64,000 nt of DNA from contig NZ_PKGB01000005.1 in the NCBI RefSeq assembly GCF_002848135.1, positions 62,001 through 126,000 on the forward strand, written 5' to 3'. The translations under genes were made by a program, and so were the position numbers. The notes below the pieces were generated by a model, which was not told the origin of the DNA, searched no databases, and worked only from the letters and a program-made list of their open reading frames with translations. This DNA is from Hydrogenovibrio sp. SC-1. GTDB lineage: Bacteria > Pseudomonadota > Gammaproteobacteria > Thiomicrospirales > Thiomicrospiraceae. Of this stretch, positions 12,270 through 36,543 are shown one piece after another (the first letter of the stretch is position 1; each line of letters starts with the position of its first letter).

Positions 12270-15035
12270 ATGACAACACCGGTATCCATCGAAAAAATTC
12301 AGTCCTGGAGTTTATTTGTTGAGCGAGAGGGGCGTCGTTTCCCTGAACTTTTGACATCTGAACATTGGCAAAGAGCCTATCAGTCTGGAGAACTTCAATC
12401 CCAGATTGCCCAATTGATCGGAGCCAGTGAGAGTTTGGCAGCATTAAATCAGCAATTACGCCATATTCGACGGACAGAAATGGTACGCATTGCGATTCGA
12501 GATTTAAACGGCTTGGCAATCGTAAATGAAACCTTGCAAGATTTGTCCGATCTAGCGGATGGTTTGGTTGCTTCAACCGTTGAATGGCATTATCAGCAAA
12601 TGGTTGTCAAGTCGGGCACGCCGATTGGTGCTGAATCAGGTGAACCGCAAACCTTGCTGGTGCTGGGGATGGGCAAGCTAGGTGGACAGGAACTCAATTT
12701 TTCGTCGGACATAGATCTAATCTTTGTCTACCCCGAAAAAGGCCAAACGCAAGGGGGGGCGAGAAGCATTCCGAATGATCAGTTTTTCACGCGTTTAGGT
12801 CAAGCCGTCAATAAGTCTTTAACGGAGTTAACCCATGATGGCATGGTTTACCGAGTGGATATGCGGTTACGACCCTTTGGACAGTCAGGTCCGTTGGCGG
12901 TCAGCTTTACAGAGATGGAAAATTATTACCAAATTCATGGCCGGGCCTGGGAGCGTTATGCGTTGGTCAAGGCGCGAGTGATTGCTGGCGACCCAGAGAA
13001 GGGGGTGGAGTTGTTTGACATCCTGGGGCCGTTTGTTTATCGAAAATATGTTGATTTCTCGGCGATTGAATCGCTACGGGAATTAAAAATGATGATTAAT
13101 GCCGAGGTTAAGAAAAAGGATAAGCATCGCAATATCAAGTTAGGCCCTGGTGGTATTCGTGAGATTGAATTTATTGTTCAGGCATTTCAATTGGTGCATG
13201 GTGGGCGAGATCCTTTGTTACAAGGCCGTCAATTAATGCCTATGTTACAAACTTTATCGGAAAGGCAGTATATCGATGCTGTTCCGCAGAAGGGGTTATT
13301 GGAAGCCTATTGCTTTTTACGGCGTGCTGAAAATCGTCTTCAAGAGTGGAATGACCAACAAACCCACGACTTACCGACCGAAGCCAATCAGCAAATGGCT
13401 TTGGCAAACTCGATGGGATTTGACAGTTATGACGCATTTTTTGAAGTCTTGACTGAGCATTTGCAGTTTGTGCAATCTGAATTTGATACGGTTTTTGCTG
13501 AAGCAGCTTCTTCTGAGGCTGTAGAGGATGCTAGCTTGAAGGAAGCTTGTCTGGGAAGTCAGATTGATGTAGATATGTTGGATGATGTTGGGCTAGATTC
13601 TAGTGAAAAGTTGGTGGCTGTCTTGGATCAATTTTTCAACTCGCGTGCCTACACTCATGCTAGTGCTGATGCAGTGAACCGATTTAGAGCGGTGTTGCCC
13701 GCAATTTTGCTGGGGCTTAAGCTGGTGGAAGATCCGGTCGTTGCACTCGAACGCGTTTTAAAAGTGATTAGTAGTGTCATGAATCGCAGTGTTTATTTGG
13801 TTCTGCTGAAAGAAAATGCACAAGCGGTTCCCCATTTACTACAACTGTGTTCTCTGAGTGCCTGGACTGCAGAAATGCTGGTGAAATACCCGGCACTGTT
13901 GGATCAATTGCTCGATGAGCGCATTTTGTATGAACCATTGAAGCTGACCGAACTCAAAGCCGAAGCGATGGCGATTTTAGACGAAAACGCATTAGATGAC
14001 GAAGCTTTTATGAATCAGTTGCGACAATGGAAGCATGCTCAGGTGTTTCGAGTTGCTGCAGCCGATATTACCGGTCATCTCCCTATTATGAAGGTGAGTG
14101 ATTATCTAACTTGGATCGCGGAAGCCGTATTAGAGGTGACGACTCAATATGCTTGGCAATTTATGCAAAAACGAAATGGGCTACCTGGCGGTGTCACCTC
14201 GTCAGAAGATCTGCCATTAATGATTATCGGTTATGGCAAATTGGGTGGTATCGAGTTAGGCTATGGCTCAGATTTGGATATTGTTTTCCTTTATGATGGT
14301 GTCCAAGCTTCTGATCAAAGTCAGGGTGCTAAACCGCTTGAAAATAATTTGTATTTTATGCGAATGACCCAAAAAATTATTTCCTTGCTAACCACCTTTA
14401 TGCCCACAGGTACTTTGTATGAAGTGGATACACGACTAAGACCCAACGGCAATAGCGGCATGATTGTCACAGATCTAGCCTCATTCGAAGCTTATCAGCG
14501 CAATAAGGCCTGGGTTTGGGAGCACCAAGCATTGGTTCGGACTCGCGCGGTGGTGGGCTCAGAAGCAGTGAAATCCAATTATGAAAAATTTAAATCAAAA
14601 TTTATAACTCAAGAACGCCAATTATCGGATTTATGTGAAGAAGTGGTGTCAATGCGACAGAAGATGCAGTCATCGCTCGATAAGACGGATGAACAGTTAT
14701 TTGATTTAAAGCAAGGATCGGGGGGCATTGTCGATATTGAATTTATGGTGCAATATTTAGTGTTAGGTTATGCGCATCGCTTTCAGTGTTTAACGGCTTG
14801 GTCTGATAATATTCGGTTATTAGAAGAAATTAAAACACTCAATATTCTGCCTGAGTCAGATGTAGAAGCGTTGGAAGAAGTTTACCGTCAGTATCGTGCG
14901 ACTTATCATCGGTTGGCATTGCAAAATGAAAAAGCGTTGGTTCCGGCAAGTTGGTTTTTAGCTGAGAAATCTTTGGTGAAGGGGGCTTGGCAAAAAGTTA
15001 TGTTGTCAGAAGTGGAAGCGGAGTCGGGAAGCTAA
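12270..15035 (+). CDS. glnE: Bifunctional glutamine synthetase adenylyltransferase/deadenylase
   Basis: Adenylates glutamine synthetase when nitrogen is plentiful and removes AMP by phosphorolysis when it is scarce. Both nucleotidyltransferase domains are intact: the first (deadenylase) near residue 133 with GMGKLGGQELNFSSDIDL, the second (adenylylase) near residue 654 with GYGKLGGIELGYGSDLDI. Each is followed by a helical PII-uridylyltransferase-like domain (GPGGIREIEFIVQ; GSGGIVDIEFMVQ). At 921 aa it is close to the E. coli enzyme in length. GAGAGAAG lies before the ATG. Its position beside glnK-amtB groups three nitrogen-control genes. Confidence 0.96.
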   Translation: MTTPVSIEKIQSWSLFVEREGRRFPELLTSEHWQRAYQSGELQSQIAQLIGASESLAALNQQLRHIRRTEMVRIAIRDLNGLAIVNETLQDLSDLADGLVASTVEWHYQQMVVKSGTPIGAESGEPQTLLVLGMGKLGGQELNFSSDIDLIFVYPEKGQTQGGARSIPNDQFFTRLGQAVNKSLTELTHDGMVYRVDMRLRPFGQSGPLAVSFTEMENYYQIHGRAWERYALVKARVIAGDPEKGVELFDILGPFVYRKYVDFSAIESLRELKMMINAEVKKKDKHRNIKLGPGGIREIEFIVQAFQLVHGGRDPLLQGRQLMPMLQTLSERQYIDAVPQKGLLEAYCFLRRAENRLQEWNDQQTHDLPTEANQQMALANSMGFDSYDAFFEVLTEHLQFVQSEFDTVFAEAASSEAVEDASLKEACLGSQIDVDMLDDVGLDSSEKLVAVLDQFFNSRAYTHASADAVNRFRAVLPAILLGLKLVEDPVVALERVLKVISSVMNRSVYLVLLKENAQAVPHLLQLCSLSAWTAEMLVKYPALLDQLLDERILYEPLKLTELKAEAMAILDENALDDEAFMNQLRQWKHAQVFRVAAADITGHLPIMKVSDYLTWIAEAVLEVTTQYAWQFMQKRNGLPGGVTSSEDLPLMIIGYGKLGGIELGYGSDLDIVFLYDGVQASDQSQGAKPLENNLYFMRMTQKIISLLTTFMPTGTLYEVDTRLRPNGNSGMIVTDLASFEAYQRNKAWVWEHQALVRTRAVVGSEAVKSNYEKFKSKFITQERQLSDLCEEVVSMRQKMQSSLDKTDEQLFDLKQGSGGIVDIEFMVQYLVLGYAHRFQCLTAWSDNIRLLEEIKTLNILPESDVEALEEVYRQYRATYHRLALQNEKALVPASWFLAEKSLVKGAWQKVMLSEVEAESGS

Positions 15036-29216: not shown

Positions 29217-30270
29217 AAGCTTCTAAAGCTAATTTGTATCAAATTTTAAGTTGTTCTTTTAATTTGACAGCTAAACATTTTAGTGGGTGTTTTTAGTTAA
29301 AAATTGGTGGCGTTTTAATGGTTAACGACACTGAATTCAATAAGGTTATTTAATGGAAGAAGATAAACAAGTCGTGATTGCTATGGATAACAACCCTGAC
29401 AAACTTTATTGGGTCGTTATTGGAGCCTCAGCCGGTGGGTTAGAGGCTTTAAAGGAATTATTGGAAGTTCTGAATCCTAAAACGCCAGCTATATATATTA
29501 TTGCTCAGCACTTAGATCCAAAACACCCTACTATCCTCAAAGACTTATTGGAAAGAGTTTCTAATATGCCAGTGGAATTGGTAAATAAAGATATGCAGCC
29601 AGTTCCGAATACGATTTATATTATTTCTCCTGGGCACAATGCTCAAATTAAGCGGGGCAAAATTATGTTAACGCCCGCGGCCTTGATAGGCCCAAAGCCC
29701 TCAATTAATCTTTTACTAAATTCTTTGGCAGACGAAGTGGCAGAAAGATCTATTGCGGTGATATTGTCAGGGACTGGATCAGATGGCGCTCAGGGAGTAG
29801 CATCCATCAAAGCTAATGCAGGGCTAATTATTGTTCAGGATAATGAAACGGCTAAATATGCGAGCATGCCTAATTCAGCAATTGAAACTGGATTTGTTGA
29901 TTTGGTTCTCCCTCCTCAGAAAATAGCAGAGGAGCTAAAAAGTTTTATTCAATCTTCGGGTAAATTACTCACTCATTTATCGATGCCAAGATCATCAACA
30001 AATTTGCAGAAACTATTCAAATGTCTCTTGGATGAAACTGGTTATGACTTTAGTGGCTATAAACTTAAAACGGTTCAACGTCGAATTGCGCGTCGCATGG
30101 CAGTTCATAAGATATTAGTTTTAGAAGATTATGTTTCATTGCTAATGTCTTCTTCAATGGAAGTTGAAAACTTATTTAAAGATTTACTGATCTCAGTGAC
30201 AGATTTTTTTAGAGATACTGAAGCTTTTAATGCCTTGGGGAAGGTTGTATACGAGTTAGTTAAAAATCAC

Positions 30271-30294
30271 AATGACAATGACAATGACAACGAC
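30271..30294 (+). repeat. Hexanucleotide tandem repeat in the CheR region
   Basis: AATGAC three times then AACGAC, encoding alternating Asn-Asp. A six-base unit changes length without changing frame. It lies about 55 bp before the frameshift. Confidence 0.8.
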
Positions 30295-31382
30295 CAGATA
30301 CGCATTTGGGTTGCTGGTTGCGCGAATGGTGAAGAAGCTTATTCGATTCAATATTATTTCAAAAGGCGGCGGTTGCATTAAAAAAAGATGTCAATTATCA
30401 GATTTTTGCAACCGATATTGATGAATTTGCCCTGTCTCAGGCACGCAAAGCAACCTTTTCAGAACATCAAGTTAAAAATATTGATCCTCAATTACTGGAT
30501 ACTTATTTTTATGTGAAAGAAGGTGTTTACACGGTTAAGAAGCTGGTTCGAGATCATGTAGTTTTTGCGCGTCAAAATGTGGTGATGGATCCGCCATTTT
30601 CTCGATTAGATTTGGTCAGTTGCCGAAATGTGATGATTTATTTTTCAATCGATTTACAGCGGCAAGTCTTACAAACTTTTCATTTTGCATTAAAAACTAG
30701 AGGGTATTTGTTTTTGGGTAAGGCAGAGTCGGCTAATTCGGTGACGCCAGAATTGTTCGATTCCTACGACAAAACAAACCAGATTTTTCAACGAAAGCAA
30801 ACCAGTATCTCTCAACGGATAGACCATGTATCGAGTGCTGTATCTGTTTCGAAAGGTCGTAAGCGTCAAGAACAGGCAATGCCATTAATGTTGCAAGAGA
30901 AAAATAACTTGCTTGGGCTGCTTGACCAAGCGTTACTTGACCAGCTGATTCCAACGGCAGTCGTTATTGATGATCAAGGGCAAGTAATGCACATTCGTGG
31001 TGATGTGAGTGGCTATTTAAACTTTCCACAAGGTCGAATTGATACCAATATTTTAACCTTAGTTAGAGAGGATCTAAAAGTTGATGTCCGAGCATTAATG
31101 CAAAAGGCCAAACGAGATGGGAATGCGTCAACCCAGGCGCTTTTTTATGAAAATACCACTAAGAAGAATGCTTTGTTTTTATCTGTTCAAGGAATGTCCG
31201 TCGAGGGGATGCCGGAAGATGTTTTTGTGCTCAGCTTTACACAGGTCGATCTCAGTGAAGCCTTTATCAGTGGTACAGGTTTAATCGATGATAAAGAAGG
31301 TATTAGTAATGAAGCTCTACGGCAGGAAGTGTCCGTCTTTAAGGAACGTTTGCAAACAGCGGTAGAAGAGCTAGAAACAACC

Positions 31383-31529
31383 AATGAAGAATTACAGTCA
31401 ACTAATGAAGAGTTGCAATCTTCAAATGAAGAGTTGCAGTCCGCAAATGAAGAATTACAAACTTCTAATGAAGAAATGCAATCAACTAATGAAGAACTGT
31501 CAACGGTTAATGAAGAGTTAGAAGTCAAA
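31383..31529 (+). repeat. 21-bp tandem repeat encoding heptad coiled coil
   Basis: Seven units, each starting AATGAAGA, encode NEELQS-type heptads (STNEELQ, SSNEELQ, SANEELQ and so on). The protein is an acidic coiled coil that links the CheR and PAS parts; such linkers are common in this CheB-CheR family. Confidence 0.85.
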
Positions 31530-32265
31530 ACTTTTGAGTTAGAACAGGTTAATAATGATTTAGAAAATATGTTGGCGATGATGAAAGAACCAATCGTGAT
31601 GGTAGATAATCGATTGAGAGTGCAAAGGCTTACTCAAGCGGCGAGTCATGTTTTAAATTTAAGCATAAAGGATTTAGGTCAAATCATTACTACCTTGGAT
31701 TTAGGTGTAGAAATTTCAAATTTACGTCAGGAACTGTTAAATGTTATTGAATCAAATGCGGAGCATGATCTACCGATTAGAAAACGAGATCAAGAGTTTG
31801 TGATTCGCCTTTCCCCCTACAAAACTGATACGGTTTCACAAGTAGGGGTTATGATGTTTGTTGAAGAAACTATACCGTTTACATCCGAGACCGAATTGAT
31901 TCAACAAGAGTGGAAGAAAATTGAGCTGTTTGGGAAGGTTGTGCCTTTTGCTCAGATTGTGATTGATGAAAATGGCATTATAGTTGCAGTAAATGATAAA
32001 ACGGAGTTGTTACTAGGTTATCGTGAAGAGGATTTGATGTACCAAAATATCAAAATGCTCATGCCTAATCCATTCAGACAGCATCACGATGGTTATATTC
32101 AAGATTACCTTTCAGGGGCAAGTGATGGCAACTTAGGTGTATGGCGTGATGTTTCGGCTCTTACAAAACCAGGTGAGCGGGTATTGTTGAAATTGAATGT
32201 TGAATCAATTTCATTAAACTGCAAGCAGCATTTTATTGGTTATTTAACAAAACCGGAGATATTGG

Positions 32266-34466
32266 ATGCAGTTAAATGAAGATTTAATGCCCGAAGTTTG
32301 TCAGCATTTGCTCAGAGATATCGAAGCTTATAAAGATGAGAATGCGCGACTACTTGATCAGCATATTGCGTTAGAGCATCAGTTCAATCTGTTGGAGCAG
32401 CAGGTTTCTGAAATGGAAGCAGAGACCCAGTATAGATTTCAAACAGGTGATGACGATTGTGTAGATATTGATAAGTATGAACAGCTTTTTTTTCAAGCAC
32501 CGATGGCATTAATCTTAGTTAATGAACGAGGGGATATTATTGAAGTTAATGAGATAGCAGTTGAGTTGTTGCAAAAAGAGGTTGGGCAACTAAAGTCTAT
32601 TAATTTTAGAAAGCTATTGGTTGCTCAGAGTAGTGTTAATTTTTTAATGGCGCTACAAAAGCTGAATTCAAGTTTACAGCAGAAGCAATTGCACCAACTA
32701 GTCACCTTAAAGGATGGCAGTTTGGTTGATGCCTGGTTTCGGATGATCAATCCAGAGATAACTCAAAATTTCAGTGTTATGATTTCATTGAATTTAATTG
32801 ATGTTCAAGTTCCTTCTCCTCACTCTTTTCGATTGTTTTCGGTGATGTTTGAGCAGTCAAGAGAGGGTGTTATTATTACTGATACCGATGGAACCATTAT
32901 TAATGTTAATCACGCTTTTTGTGAAATTACCGGTTATGCAGAGAGTGAAGTTTTAGGTAAGAATCCTCGGTTGTTACACTCCGGCTATCATAATGAAGCC
33001 TTTTACAAGGAAATGTGGCAGCAGCTTTTTCATGCGGGCTGGTGGGTTGGTGAAGTTTGGAATCGTCGGAAAAATGGTGAAACTTATCCTGAATGGTTAA
33101 CCATTTATCGAGTGCATGACGATCAATTAGCGCAAAGCTTTTATGTTGCTAACTTCTCTGATTTAACTGAACGCAAACAACATCAACAGCAACTTGATCG
33201 GTTGGCCTTTTACGATATATTGACTGGATTGCCGAATCGTTCTATGTTAAATAATTTCATCGAAGAGAAGTTAACCAGTCCAAAAGCATCAGAAAAAATT
33301 GCTGTTTGTTTTCTAGATTTGGATAAGTTTAAAGATGTCAATGACAATTATGGTCATCCGGAAGGTGATCGAATACTAAGAGAGGCCTCACAAAGAATCT
33401 TATCTCGTATCCGAGAGGGTGATATGGCTTGTCGAGTGGGAGGGGATGAATTTGTAGTGGTATTAACTCGAATTCAAGTTGCTGAAGATGCAAAAGTCGT
33501 TGCTCAGGATTTACTTGAAGTCCTGTCTAACCCTTTTAAAACCAAACAAGCTCAGCACCGATTATCTGTCTCTATTGGCATTTCATTTTCAGCTGAACAT
33601 GGTAAAACAGTGAGTGACCTGATGCGTCGAGCCGATGCGGCGATGTATAAAGCTAAAAACCTAGGGCGGAATGGCTTCCAGGTTTTTGAATCAGAAGATG
33701 AGCAACAGTTGAGCGAAGCGAATACAGTTTTAAGTCATATATGGCAAGCTATAGACCATCCATTACAAACTATCGAAATGCACTATCAACCCGTTTATGC
33801 TAGAGAAGATACGAATATTCCTCGGCATTTTGAAGCTTTGGTTCGAATTCAAGTTGATGGTGAACAGCTGATATACCCTGGAAGTTTTATAGAGTTGGCA
33901 GAACAACAAGGGTTAATGGATAAATTGGGTATGGCGATTTTTGAATCTGTTTGTCGTGATATCGTTGAATGTTTGCTTCCGAGTGACTTTCGAGTGGCTG
34001 TCAATTTATCACAGCAGCAGTTTTACAACCAGAGATTGTTGGAGCAACTGGAATTAAAAGCAAAAGAGTATGGTCTAAGCCTTAGCCGCTTTCAGTTTGA
34101 GGTCACGGAAACCGCAACGATGGAAAACCTTCATTTGATGGGGGGGGGTTAGAGGCCTTAAAGGAAAAGCAAGCAGATATTTTATTGGATGACTTTGGAA
34201 CTGGTTACGCTTCATTATCTATCTTGAAAAGTTTACCAGTGAATATTCTTAAAATTGATCAAAGTTTTGTAAAAGACATTGGTAGTTCAGTTGAGGTAGA
34301 AACCATGATTATGGCGATTATTGCTATGGCCAAGGCATTGGGTTTAGAGTTGGTTGCTGAAGGGGTCGAAACAGAAAAACAACTGAAATGGTTAACTGAA
34401 CAAAGTGTGGATTACTTGCAGGGTTACTATTTAGCTAAACCAGAACGACCTTTTAAGTTGAGTTGA
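32266..34466 (+). pseudogene. PAS-PAS-GGDEF-EAL c-di-GMP protein, broken at a G9 tract
   Basis: Soluble c-di-GMP enzyme. Coiled N-terminus (about 1-55), PAS 1 (about 70-185), PAS 2 (about 192-305), then a GGDEF domain with VGGDEF and an upstream RxxD inhibitory site (REGD), and an EAL domain with FEALVR, VAVNLS, FEVTET, DDFGTG and AEGVE. The frame stops at 34150-34152 after a run of nine G (34140-34148). The rest of the EAL domain (LEALKEKQAD, LLDDFGTGYASL) continues from 34149 in another frame to 34466. A run of 7 or 10 G would restore one protein of about 730 aa. Both catalytic domains look otherwise intact. Confidence 0.85.
34140..34148 (+). repeat. Homopolymer of nine G inside the EAL domain
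   Basis: Longest G run seen in the window, at the exact point where the frame is lost. Confidence 0.95.
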
Positions 34467-34571: not shown

Positions 34572-34677
34572 CCTGCCCAGTGCTATTGTAGATTGAAAAA
34601 AAACTGCTATATTACCGTTCCCTAATGTTTGTATGTTGTGCTATTGAGTGCAGTTTTTTGATATCTTTGGAAGTTTT

Positions 34678-36543
34678 ATGTTGTCACCTTCTTGGTTAAG
34701 TTATTTGGTTTCAAAACGGTTTTTATTCGCCATTGTCCTGTTTTGCAGTGGCGCTTTGGTCACGATTTATAGCGTTTATCAATGGAAAATTGAAAATACT
34801 CGCCAACAAGAGTTTCAGTTCTACAAAGCCCATTTAAATGATGAATTAGCCGTGCTCATTCAAGGTAAAGCAGAGATAACTCAGGCGATCGCGGTTTCCA
34901 TTACCACTTTACCGGTTTTGAAGCAAGCACTTCAAAGTCAGGACATTCCCATTCAACCTATTTTGGCAGCCTATAGTCAACGCCTTAAAGAGCAGACGCC
35001 CTACAAAGAAGTATGGATTCAACTGGTTGATGCAAAAGGGGTGAGCTTGGCTCGAAGTTGGACCCAGCGAAAAAATGATGATTTAAGTCAAATTCGTCGG
35101 GATATCGCCTCTTTGCTTCAGCAACCGCGCTATATGAATAACTTCAGTGTGGGTAAGTTTGCGTTGACCTTTAAGTCATTGGTCCCTCTTTATGATGATC
35201 GCAGGCAATTGATGGGGATCTTAGAGGTGATCTCCCATGTTAATTCGATTGACCGAATGTTAGCGGAAGCAAATGGAGTGCGTTCGGTAGTATTGGTAAA
35301 TCGCGATTATCGAGCACAGTTGACGCGCTCTAAAACGGGTAAATTTATTGGTGATTACTATGTCGCTAATGATGCTGTTTCAGAGTCAGATATGGCATTG
35401 ATTGATCGACTAGGCGTTGAAGCAATGTTTGAAGACAGTCAATATCGAATCTTTGATGGTCAATTGTTAATCAGTCATCCTATAGAAGACCTGCAAGGTC
35501 AAAGAATGGCAAACTGGGTCAGTGTTCTGCCTTTATCCGATTTTCAATTTGTTAATCTACAGCAAACTCAGCGTCAAATTGTTTTGATTTCGGCATTTAT
35601 AATTGTGCTGGTTTTGCTATTGGTAGCGGTGGTTCACTTTAAGCGTCAGACAGAATTTGAACGACGCTTTTTCTTTGAGGTGTTTGATACGGCAACGGAA
35701 ATGGTCTTTGTCGTAAAGTCCCAACGGATGTTGCTTGCTAATAGGCGCTTTTTTGAGTTTTTTAGTCAATTTAAAACGGTTGAAGATTTTCATCAGCACC
35801 ATGATTGTATCTGTGAGTTTTTTGTATCTGAAACGGGTTATTTATCGCAGTTTGTTAACGGAGATTTTTGGTTAGACTATTTAGTGAAGCATAAAGATCA
35901 AGTGCACTACGCAAAAGTAAAGCAGCAGGATGCCATCTATATCTTTTTAGTGAAGGCCACTGAGATTACCAATGTCCAAGGTGAGCGTTATATCAGTGTA
36001 TTAATGTCAGATGTCACTGAAGAATATCGCTATAAAAATAAATTAGAGCAGTTAATTATTCAAGATGAATTAACGGGTATTTACAACCGTCATTACTTTA
36101 ATCAAGTTTTAAACCAGGAAATTAAGCGCCATCAACGTTATCAGACGCCACTCTCAATGGCGTTTATTGATATCGATCATTTCAAAAACATAAATGACCA
36201 TTACGGGCATGATGTCGGTGATGAAGTCTTAAAAACCATGACAAATACTATTTGCAATGAGTTACGCGATACTGATGTGTTCTGTCGAGTGGGTGGTGAA
36301 GAATTTGTGGTGATGATGCCACAAACCACATTGCAAAATGCAATGGTCATTGCCGAGCGAATGCGTCAATCCGTTGAAATTTTGCACTTTGAACAGTTGC
36401 AGGAAACCGTGACTATCAGTATTGGTTTGGTTGAACTTTTTCAAACTGAATCCAGTACAGCCTTTTATAAGCGTGCCGATAATGCGCTCTATCAAGCCAA
36501 AGAGTCGGGTCGAAACCAAGTTAAATTTCAATCTGAAATCTAA
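34678..36543 (+). CDS. Membrane diguanylate cyclase with periplasmic sensor, PAS and GGDEF
   Basis: 621 aa from ATG 34678 (GGAAG just before it); the GTG at 34648 has no ribosome site. Transmembrane segment 1 is at about 15-35 (FLFAIVLFCSGALVTIYSVY), a ~270-residue periplasmic region of double-Cache type follows, then transmembrane segment 2 near 295-315 (IVLISAFIIVLVLLLVAVV), a PAS-like domain and a GGDEF domain at the C-terminus. The active site is VGGEEF and RDTD supplies the RxxD product-inhibition site five residues before it, so it should make c-di-GMP from GTP and be feedback controlled. It has no EAL domain. It is separate from the upstream broken c-di-GMP gene. Confidence 0.9.
   Translation: MLSPSWLSYLVSKRFLFAIVLFCSGALVTIYSVYQWKIENTRQQEFQFYKAHLNDELAVLIQGKAEITQAIAVSITTLPVLKQALQSQDIPIQPILAAYSQRLKEQTPYKEVWIQLVDAKGVSLARSWTQRKNDDLSQIRRDIASLLQQPRYMNNFSVGKFALTFKSLVPLYDDRRQLMGILEVISHVNSIDRMLAEANGVRSVVLVNRDYRAQLTRSKTGKFIGDYYVANDAVSESDMALIDRLGVEAMFEDSQYRIFDGQLLISHPIEDLQGQRMANWVSVLPLSDFQFVNLQQTQRQIVLISAFIIVLVLLLVAVVHFKRQTEFERRFFFEVFDTATEMVFVVKSQRMLLANRRFFEFFSQFKTVEDFHQHHDCICEFFVSETGYLSQFVNGDFWLDYLVKHKDQVHYAKVKQQDAIYIFLVKATEITNVQGERYISVLMSDVTEEYRYKNKLEQLIIQDELTGIYNRHYFNQVLNQEIKRHQRYQTPLSMAFIDIDHFKNINDHYGHDVGDEVLKTMTNTICNELRDTDVFCRVGGEEFVVMMPQTTLQNAMVIAERMRQSVEILHFEQLQETVTISIGLVELFQTESSTAFYKRADNALYQAKESGRNQVKFQSEI

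Follow-up and report, generated by a model that had tools for sequence, protein, structure and literature searches.

Adjacent frame breaks in a GGDEF-EAL gene and a cheB-cheR-PAS gene of Hydrogenovibrio sp. SC-1: a run of nine Gs and the possible recent loss of an operon

Phase variation caused by a homopolymer has been described for a two-component gene of Bordetella pertussis (Stibitz 1989, as cited in PMC8115180), and inlA of Listeria monocytogenes is a phase-variable gene switched by slipped-strand changes in a homopolymeric tract (PMC2831843). Length changes in such runs can occur at about 1,000 times the rate of point mutations, as shown for poly-A in inlA (PMC2831843). In evolved Pseudomonas aeruginosa, one-base deletions in a poly-G repeat of orfN were selected and led to loss of function (PMC3441735). 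An initial annotation of DNA from Hydrogenovibrio sp. SC-1 proposed that a run of nine Gs in a GGDEF-EAL gene is a phase switch of this kind. If true, a c-di-GMP enzyme of a chemoautotroph that is not a pathogen would be under direct control of homopolymer phase variation, a case of which no description was found in the part of the literature covered.

The SC-1 genome was sequenced by Illumina NextSeq and assembled from normalised reads with SPAdes 3.0.0 into 41 contigs (largest 263,867 bp, N50 131,404 bp, 2.45 Mb, 42.9% GC); motility genes are present, yet motility was unseen in culture (PMC5794960). The assembly contains 2,452,073 bases in total, and the window, meaning the whole 64-kb stretch of DNA that was analyzed, has a GC content of 42.9%. 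The features of the locus are listed in Table 1.

Table 1. Features of the locus, with positions counted from the first base of the window.
Feature	Position	Strand	Remarks
5' part of cheB-cheR-PAS	29353..30381	+	CheB complete, CheR SAM-binding domain cut; intact in relatives
3' part of cheB-cheR-PAS	30333..32279	+	other frame; first listed start GTG 30513
One-base deletion site in cheB-cheR	30346..30348	+	ATTC here, ATTTC in nearest ortholog; no long homopolymer
5' part of PAS-PAS-GGDEF-EAL gene	32266..34152	+	deposited length 628 aa; full GGDEF, EAL truncated after column 131 of 236
Run of nine G, frameshift site	34140..34148	+	in-frame ATG GGG GGG GGT TAG; absent from orthologs
3' EAL remnant (DDFGTG, ILKID, AEGVE, LQGY motifs)	34149..34466	+	-1 frame; no own upstream start codon
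Downstream dCache-GGDEF gene, intact	34648..36543	+	syntenic in G003

The run of nine Gs (G9) was the longest G/C run in the window, and it begins with the last base of an ATG codon. Frame 1 of the ORF ends at a TAG (34150-34152) right after the run, and the EAL-coding sequence resumes in the -1 frame up to a stop at 34466, which bears out the annotated loss of frame at G9. In the Pfam analysis, the ORF matched PAS, a complete GGDEF and columns 11-131 of EAL, and the remnant matched EAL columns 139-236. The homopolymer-associated frameshift had been correctly placed within the EAL domain. As deposited, the gene does not encode a bifunctional GGDEF-EAL protein with both domains complete in one frame, the EAL domain being split over two. 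The translated ORF keeps the GGDEF motif together with an RxxD motif (REGD) five residues before it, and the annotated dependence of a GGDEF-only or a GGDEF-EAL product on tract length also held. Separate translation of the remnant was rejected, as its frame is open only from 34101, with no ATG ahead of the conserved part.

An ortholog covering most of the protein was present in 12 genomes of the family besides SC-1, and none of the 12 contained an internal stop. The nearest ortholog (69% amino-acid identity to SC-1 as reported in the family comparison, 74% DNA identity) belongs to a MAG, G003 (record PEWX01000076). At the site of the tract it reads AGAAAATTA, with no G run; the codons of G003 there are ATG AGA AAA TTA CTT GAA, and SC-1 has ATG, eight more Gs and then TTAGAG. 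None of the orthologs read at the DNA level had a G run at this site, the longest being 3 G. The distance from the conserved E of EVTET to DDFGTG was 30 residues in all 12 orthologs, and the spacing predicted for SC-1 was 30 residues with ten Gs (G10) and 29 with seven (G7). Either length rejoins the two frames, as the initial annotation had stated, but the ortholog spacing is obtained from G10 only; G7 is therefore disfavoured as the original length, and the deposited G9 is a -1 form of a gene of G10 length. The three glycines of the G10 allele align with variable residues of the orthologs (the third is often hydrophobic, and is Gly in congeners G005 and G006), which makes the G10 protein plausible. 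G9 could also have come from some other one-base event, such as a T dropped from a GTG codon within the run, but slippage in G10 is much the likelier origin.

The initial annotation overlooked a second broken gene. Upstream, the 3' part of the cheB-cheR-PAS gene runs 14 bp into the GGDEF-EAL gene, over the ATG of the latter, and the CheR domain of the upstream gene is split at columns 55/59 across two frames. Alignment to G003 showed that one T of ATTTC is missing near 30347, outside any long run; the A7 at 30380-30386 was thereby rejected as the cause of the break. In G003, Thiomicrospira sp. ALE5, T. microaerophila, G005 and G006 the gene lies in one unbroken frame, and within the genus it is intact in every other genome that has it (G003, G005 and G006). 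G003 and the two Thiomicrospira genomes also have an unbroken GGDEF-EAL gene. Of the 12 genus genomes, eight gave no cheB-cheR match at E up to 1e-100, and the distribution of the operon is therefore patchy. Near the locus, the Rfam search detected only a tRNA, and scans for consensus promoters and terminators gave matches at chance level. The plasmid search gave no result.

We compared 849 kb of SC-1 with 792 kb of G003, which yielded 207 genes and 78,698 codons (about 236 kb of coding sequence). Three of the 207 genes were frameshifted, namely the GGDEF-EAL gene, cheB-cheR-PAS and a ligase-like gene on contig C1, so an assembly riddled with frameshifts in general was rejected. Each of the three had lost a single base, in two cases at a site with no long run. 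The probability that two of three frameshifts are adjacent by chance is, by rough estimate, about 3%; a stricter figure for this particular pair (0.0007) is post hoc and is not to be used. In the ligase-like gene (L140:13696-14474), one base is missing near 14223 in comparison with G003; its EKLDGVR motif suggests that the product may be an ATP-dependent DNA ligase.

The amount of G/C runs of at least nine bases was also determined. Two were observed in the 849-kb sample, where 1.8 were expected from independent bases and 2.3 from a dinucleotide model, so the length of the run does not by itself exceed what chance would give. Genome-wide, SC-1 had four such runs, and most congeners had none to five distinct ones. 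One congener, G008, gave about 300 overlapping G9 matches in an incomplete genome of 1.6 Mb, far above the others, which may reflect base composition or an artefact of its assembly. In SC-1, a G9 lies in the intact ilvC gene (ketol-acid reductoisomerase, L002:1501-1509) and a G8 in the intact RuBisCO large-chain gene (L013:1501-1508), and further G8/G9 runs lie in intact transglycosylase, SNF-family transporter and periplasmic binding protein genes. Another is in what is presumably an aconitase B gene, recognised from its start. Most identifiable G8/G9 runs were thus in intact housekeeping genes, with a few runs in short or unassigned ORFs left out of this count. Both mutS and mutL were intact, and a hypermutator background was rejected.

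The age of the breaks was estimated from pN/pS against G003. Downstream of the break, cheB-cheR had a ratio of 0.13, and the part of EAL that follows the tract had 0.11; both values indicate strong purifying selection and were inside the range of the intact neighbours (0.07-0.28); synonymous sites are near saturation in this comparison, and only the order of the ratios is meaningful. An old pseudogene was rejected because of the low pN/pS downstream of both breaks. The ratios suggest that the two breaks arose recently, unless they are errors or leave the function in place part of the time. The deposited sequence, which may hold an assembly error, has the features of a recent pseudogene: a disrupting mutation, intact orthologs and little decay elsewhere.

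Besides those of the broken gene, profile matches gave SC-1 about 30 EAL and 58 GGDEF domains, so the effect of the G9 allele may be small. With 59 GGDEF domains and 34 EAL matches, which correspond to about 31 domains, SC-1 has a large c-di-GMP set for a genome of 2.45 Mb; most congeners gave 23-27 EAL matches. In one congener with a single contig (G009:C1:2131996-2132703), an EAL gene has a 1296-codon frame with one TAA within the match, which could mark a pseudogene or the end of the domain.

Judged from the sequence, the chances are about even that a dispensable c-di-GMP/chemotaxis-type operon has recently been inactivated and that the tract was a mutational weak spot. Two independent one-base deletions would have recently inactivated the GGDEF-EAL gene and the overlapping cheB-cheR-PAS gene in SC-1, the former most likely by slipped-strand loss of one G from G10, the most mutable spot of the gene. 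This reading takes the deletions to be genuine, with G10 as the presumed ancestral length and a loss that would have been neutral or favoured. The deposited product would combine a complete diguanylate-cyclase domain with half an EAL domain and could have no active phosphodiesterase; lacking the second half of the EAL barrel, including DDFGTG, it would at most make c-di-GMP. The G9 tract could revert through slippage. The pair of genes is probably dispensable, because SC-1 has many other EAL and GGDEF domains and because eight of 12 genus genomes are without a close cheB-cheR homolog. Counting against loss of the operon, the evidence comes from one assembly of one isolate, in which the deletions may be errors; two frameshifts are few, and the good preservation of the rest of both genes would equally be expected of a switch or an error; and the downstream gene, having its own start, could be expressed and regulated separately.

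Genuine phase variation, in which slippage between G9 and G10 would toggle a cyclase-only form and the full GGDEF-EAL enzyme, is an unlikely explanation of the locus. G9 is long enough for slippage and is one base off the in-frame length that gives the ortholog spacing, selection still acts on the sequence beyond the tract, and a PAS-GGDEF-EAL protein, PdcB, is known to be phase-variable in Clostridioides difficile, via an invertible promoter element (PMC9286219). A frame-setting repeat does lie inside the coding sequence of SC-1, and G10 restores the spacing, as in a contingency locus. However, the tract is neither kept nor recurrent in the orthologs examined, long tracts in the 849-kb sample are neither in excess nor concentrated in switchable genes, other G8 or G9 runs occur in ilvC, RuBisCO and periplasmic-protein genes whose frames are unbroken, MutS and MutL are both intact, and a switch does not explain the non-repeat deletion in the partner gene. 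Loss of the operon or an assembly error is favoured over a dedicated switch because the upstream gene is broken outside a long run, G9 is at chance level and no ortholog read at the site has the run; on these grounds the reading of an evolved phase switch was not supported. Support for a switch is weak, with no sign that the tract is maintained as one. The lack of a G run in relatives, which the initial annotation had set against its own proposal, was found among the orthologs read, and it leaves room for a switch specific to this lineage. Such a G9/G10 homopolymer switch, by which a sulfur/iron-oxidising chemoautotroph would form mixed populations of attached and free-living cells, is a shade more doubtful again.

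An artefact of assembly or sequencing would mean that the true tract is G10, that cheB-cheR is intact and that a base went missing in the NextSeq/SPAdes 3.0.0 draft made from k-mer-normalised reads. This is possible but on balance improbable. The 41-contig draft status of the genome, the fact that all three frameshifts in about 236 kb are one-base deletions, with two of them outside long runs, and the purifying selection past the breaks in both genes are consistent with it, whereas 204 of the 207 compared genes had no frameshift and two of the three cases are adjacent. Illumina sequencing, moreover, rarely drops bases in runs of three to four, as at the cheB-cheR and ligase-like deletions. It is very improbable that recoding on the G run, through a -1 frameshift in translation or slippage in transcription, yields some full-length protein from G9. 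The shift needed is a -1 shift on G GGG GGG, with a stop codon directly after; however, the orthologs are without the slippery run, and no stimulatory structure was found downstream, the folding energy being weaker than that of most shuffles (z = +1.35). Programmed frameshifting was rejected, with neither a conserved slippery site nor a downstream structure. The sequence of the operon in SC-1 is flagged as needing a check against the reads.

The main lesson of the locus is that a homopolymer at the point where a frame breaks has to be judged along with its neighbours, the adjacent gene here being broken with no repeat involved. As in the B. pertussis gene and inlA, a one-base change in run length inside the coding sequence shifts the frame; unlike them, the SC-1 tract is known from one genome, is unconserved and has a neighbour gene that is also broken. 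The likeness to pdcB of C. difficile is that the output of a PAS-GGDEF-EAL protein would be switched, but pdcB is switched by inversion of an upstream promoter element rather than through a homopolymer in the gene (PMC9286219). The changes in orfN of P. aeruginosa were seen in replicate evolving populations, whereas the SC-1 change is in a single genome (PMC3441735). Like the GGDEF-EAL gene, orfN is truncated by a one-base deletion in a G run, and no dedicated switch is needed for it (PMC3441735).
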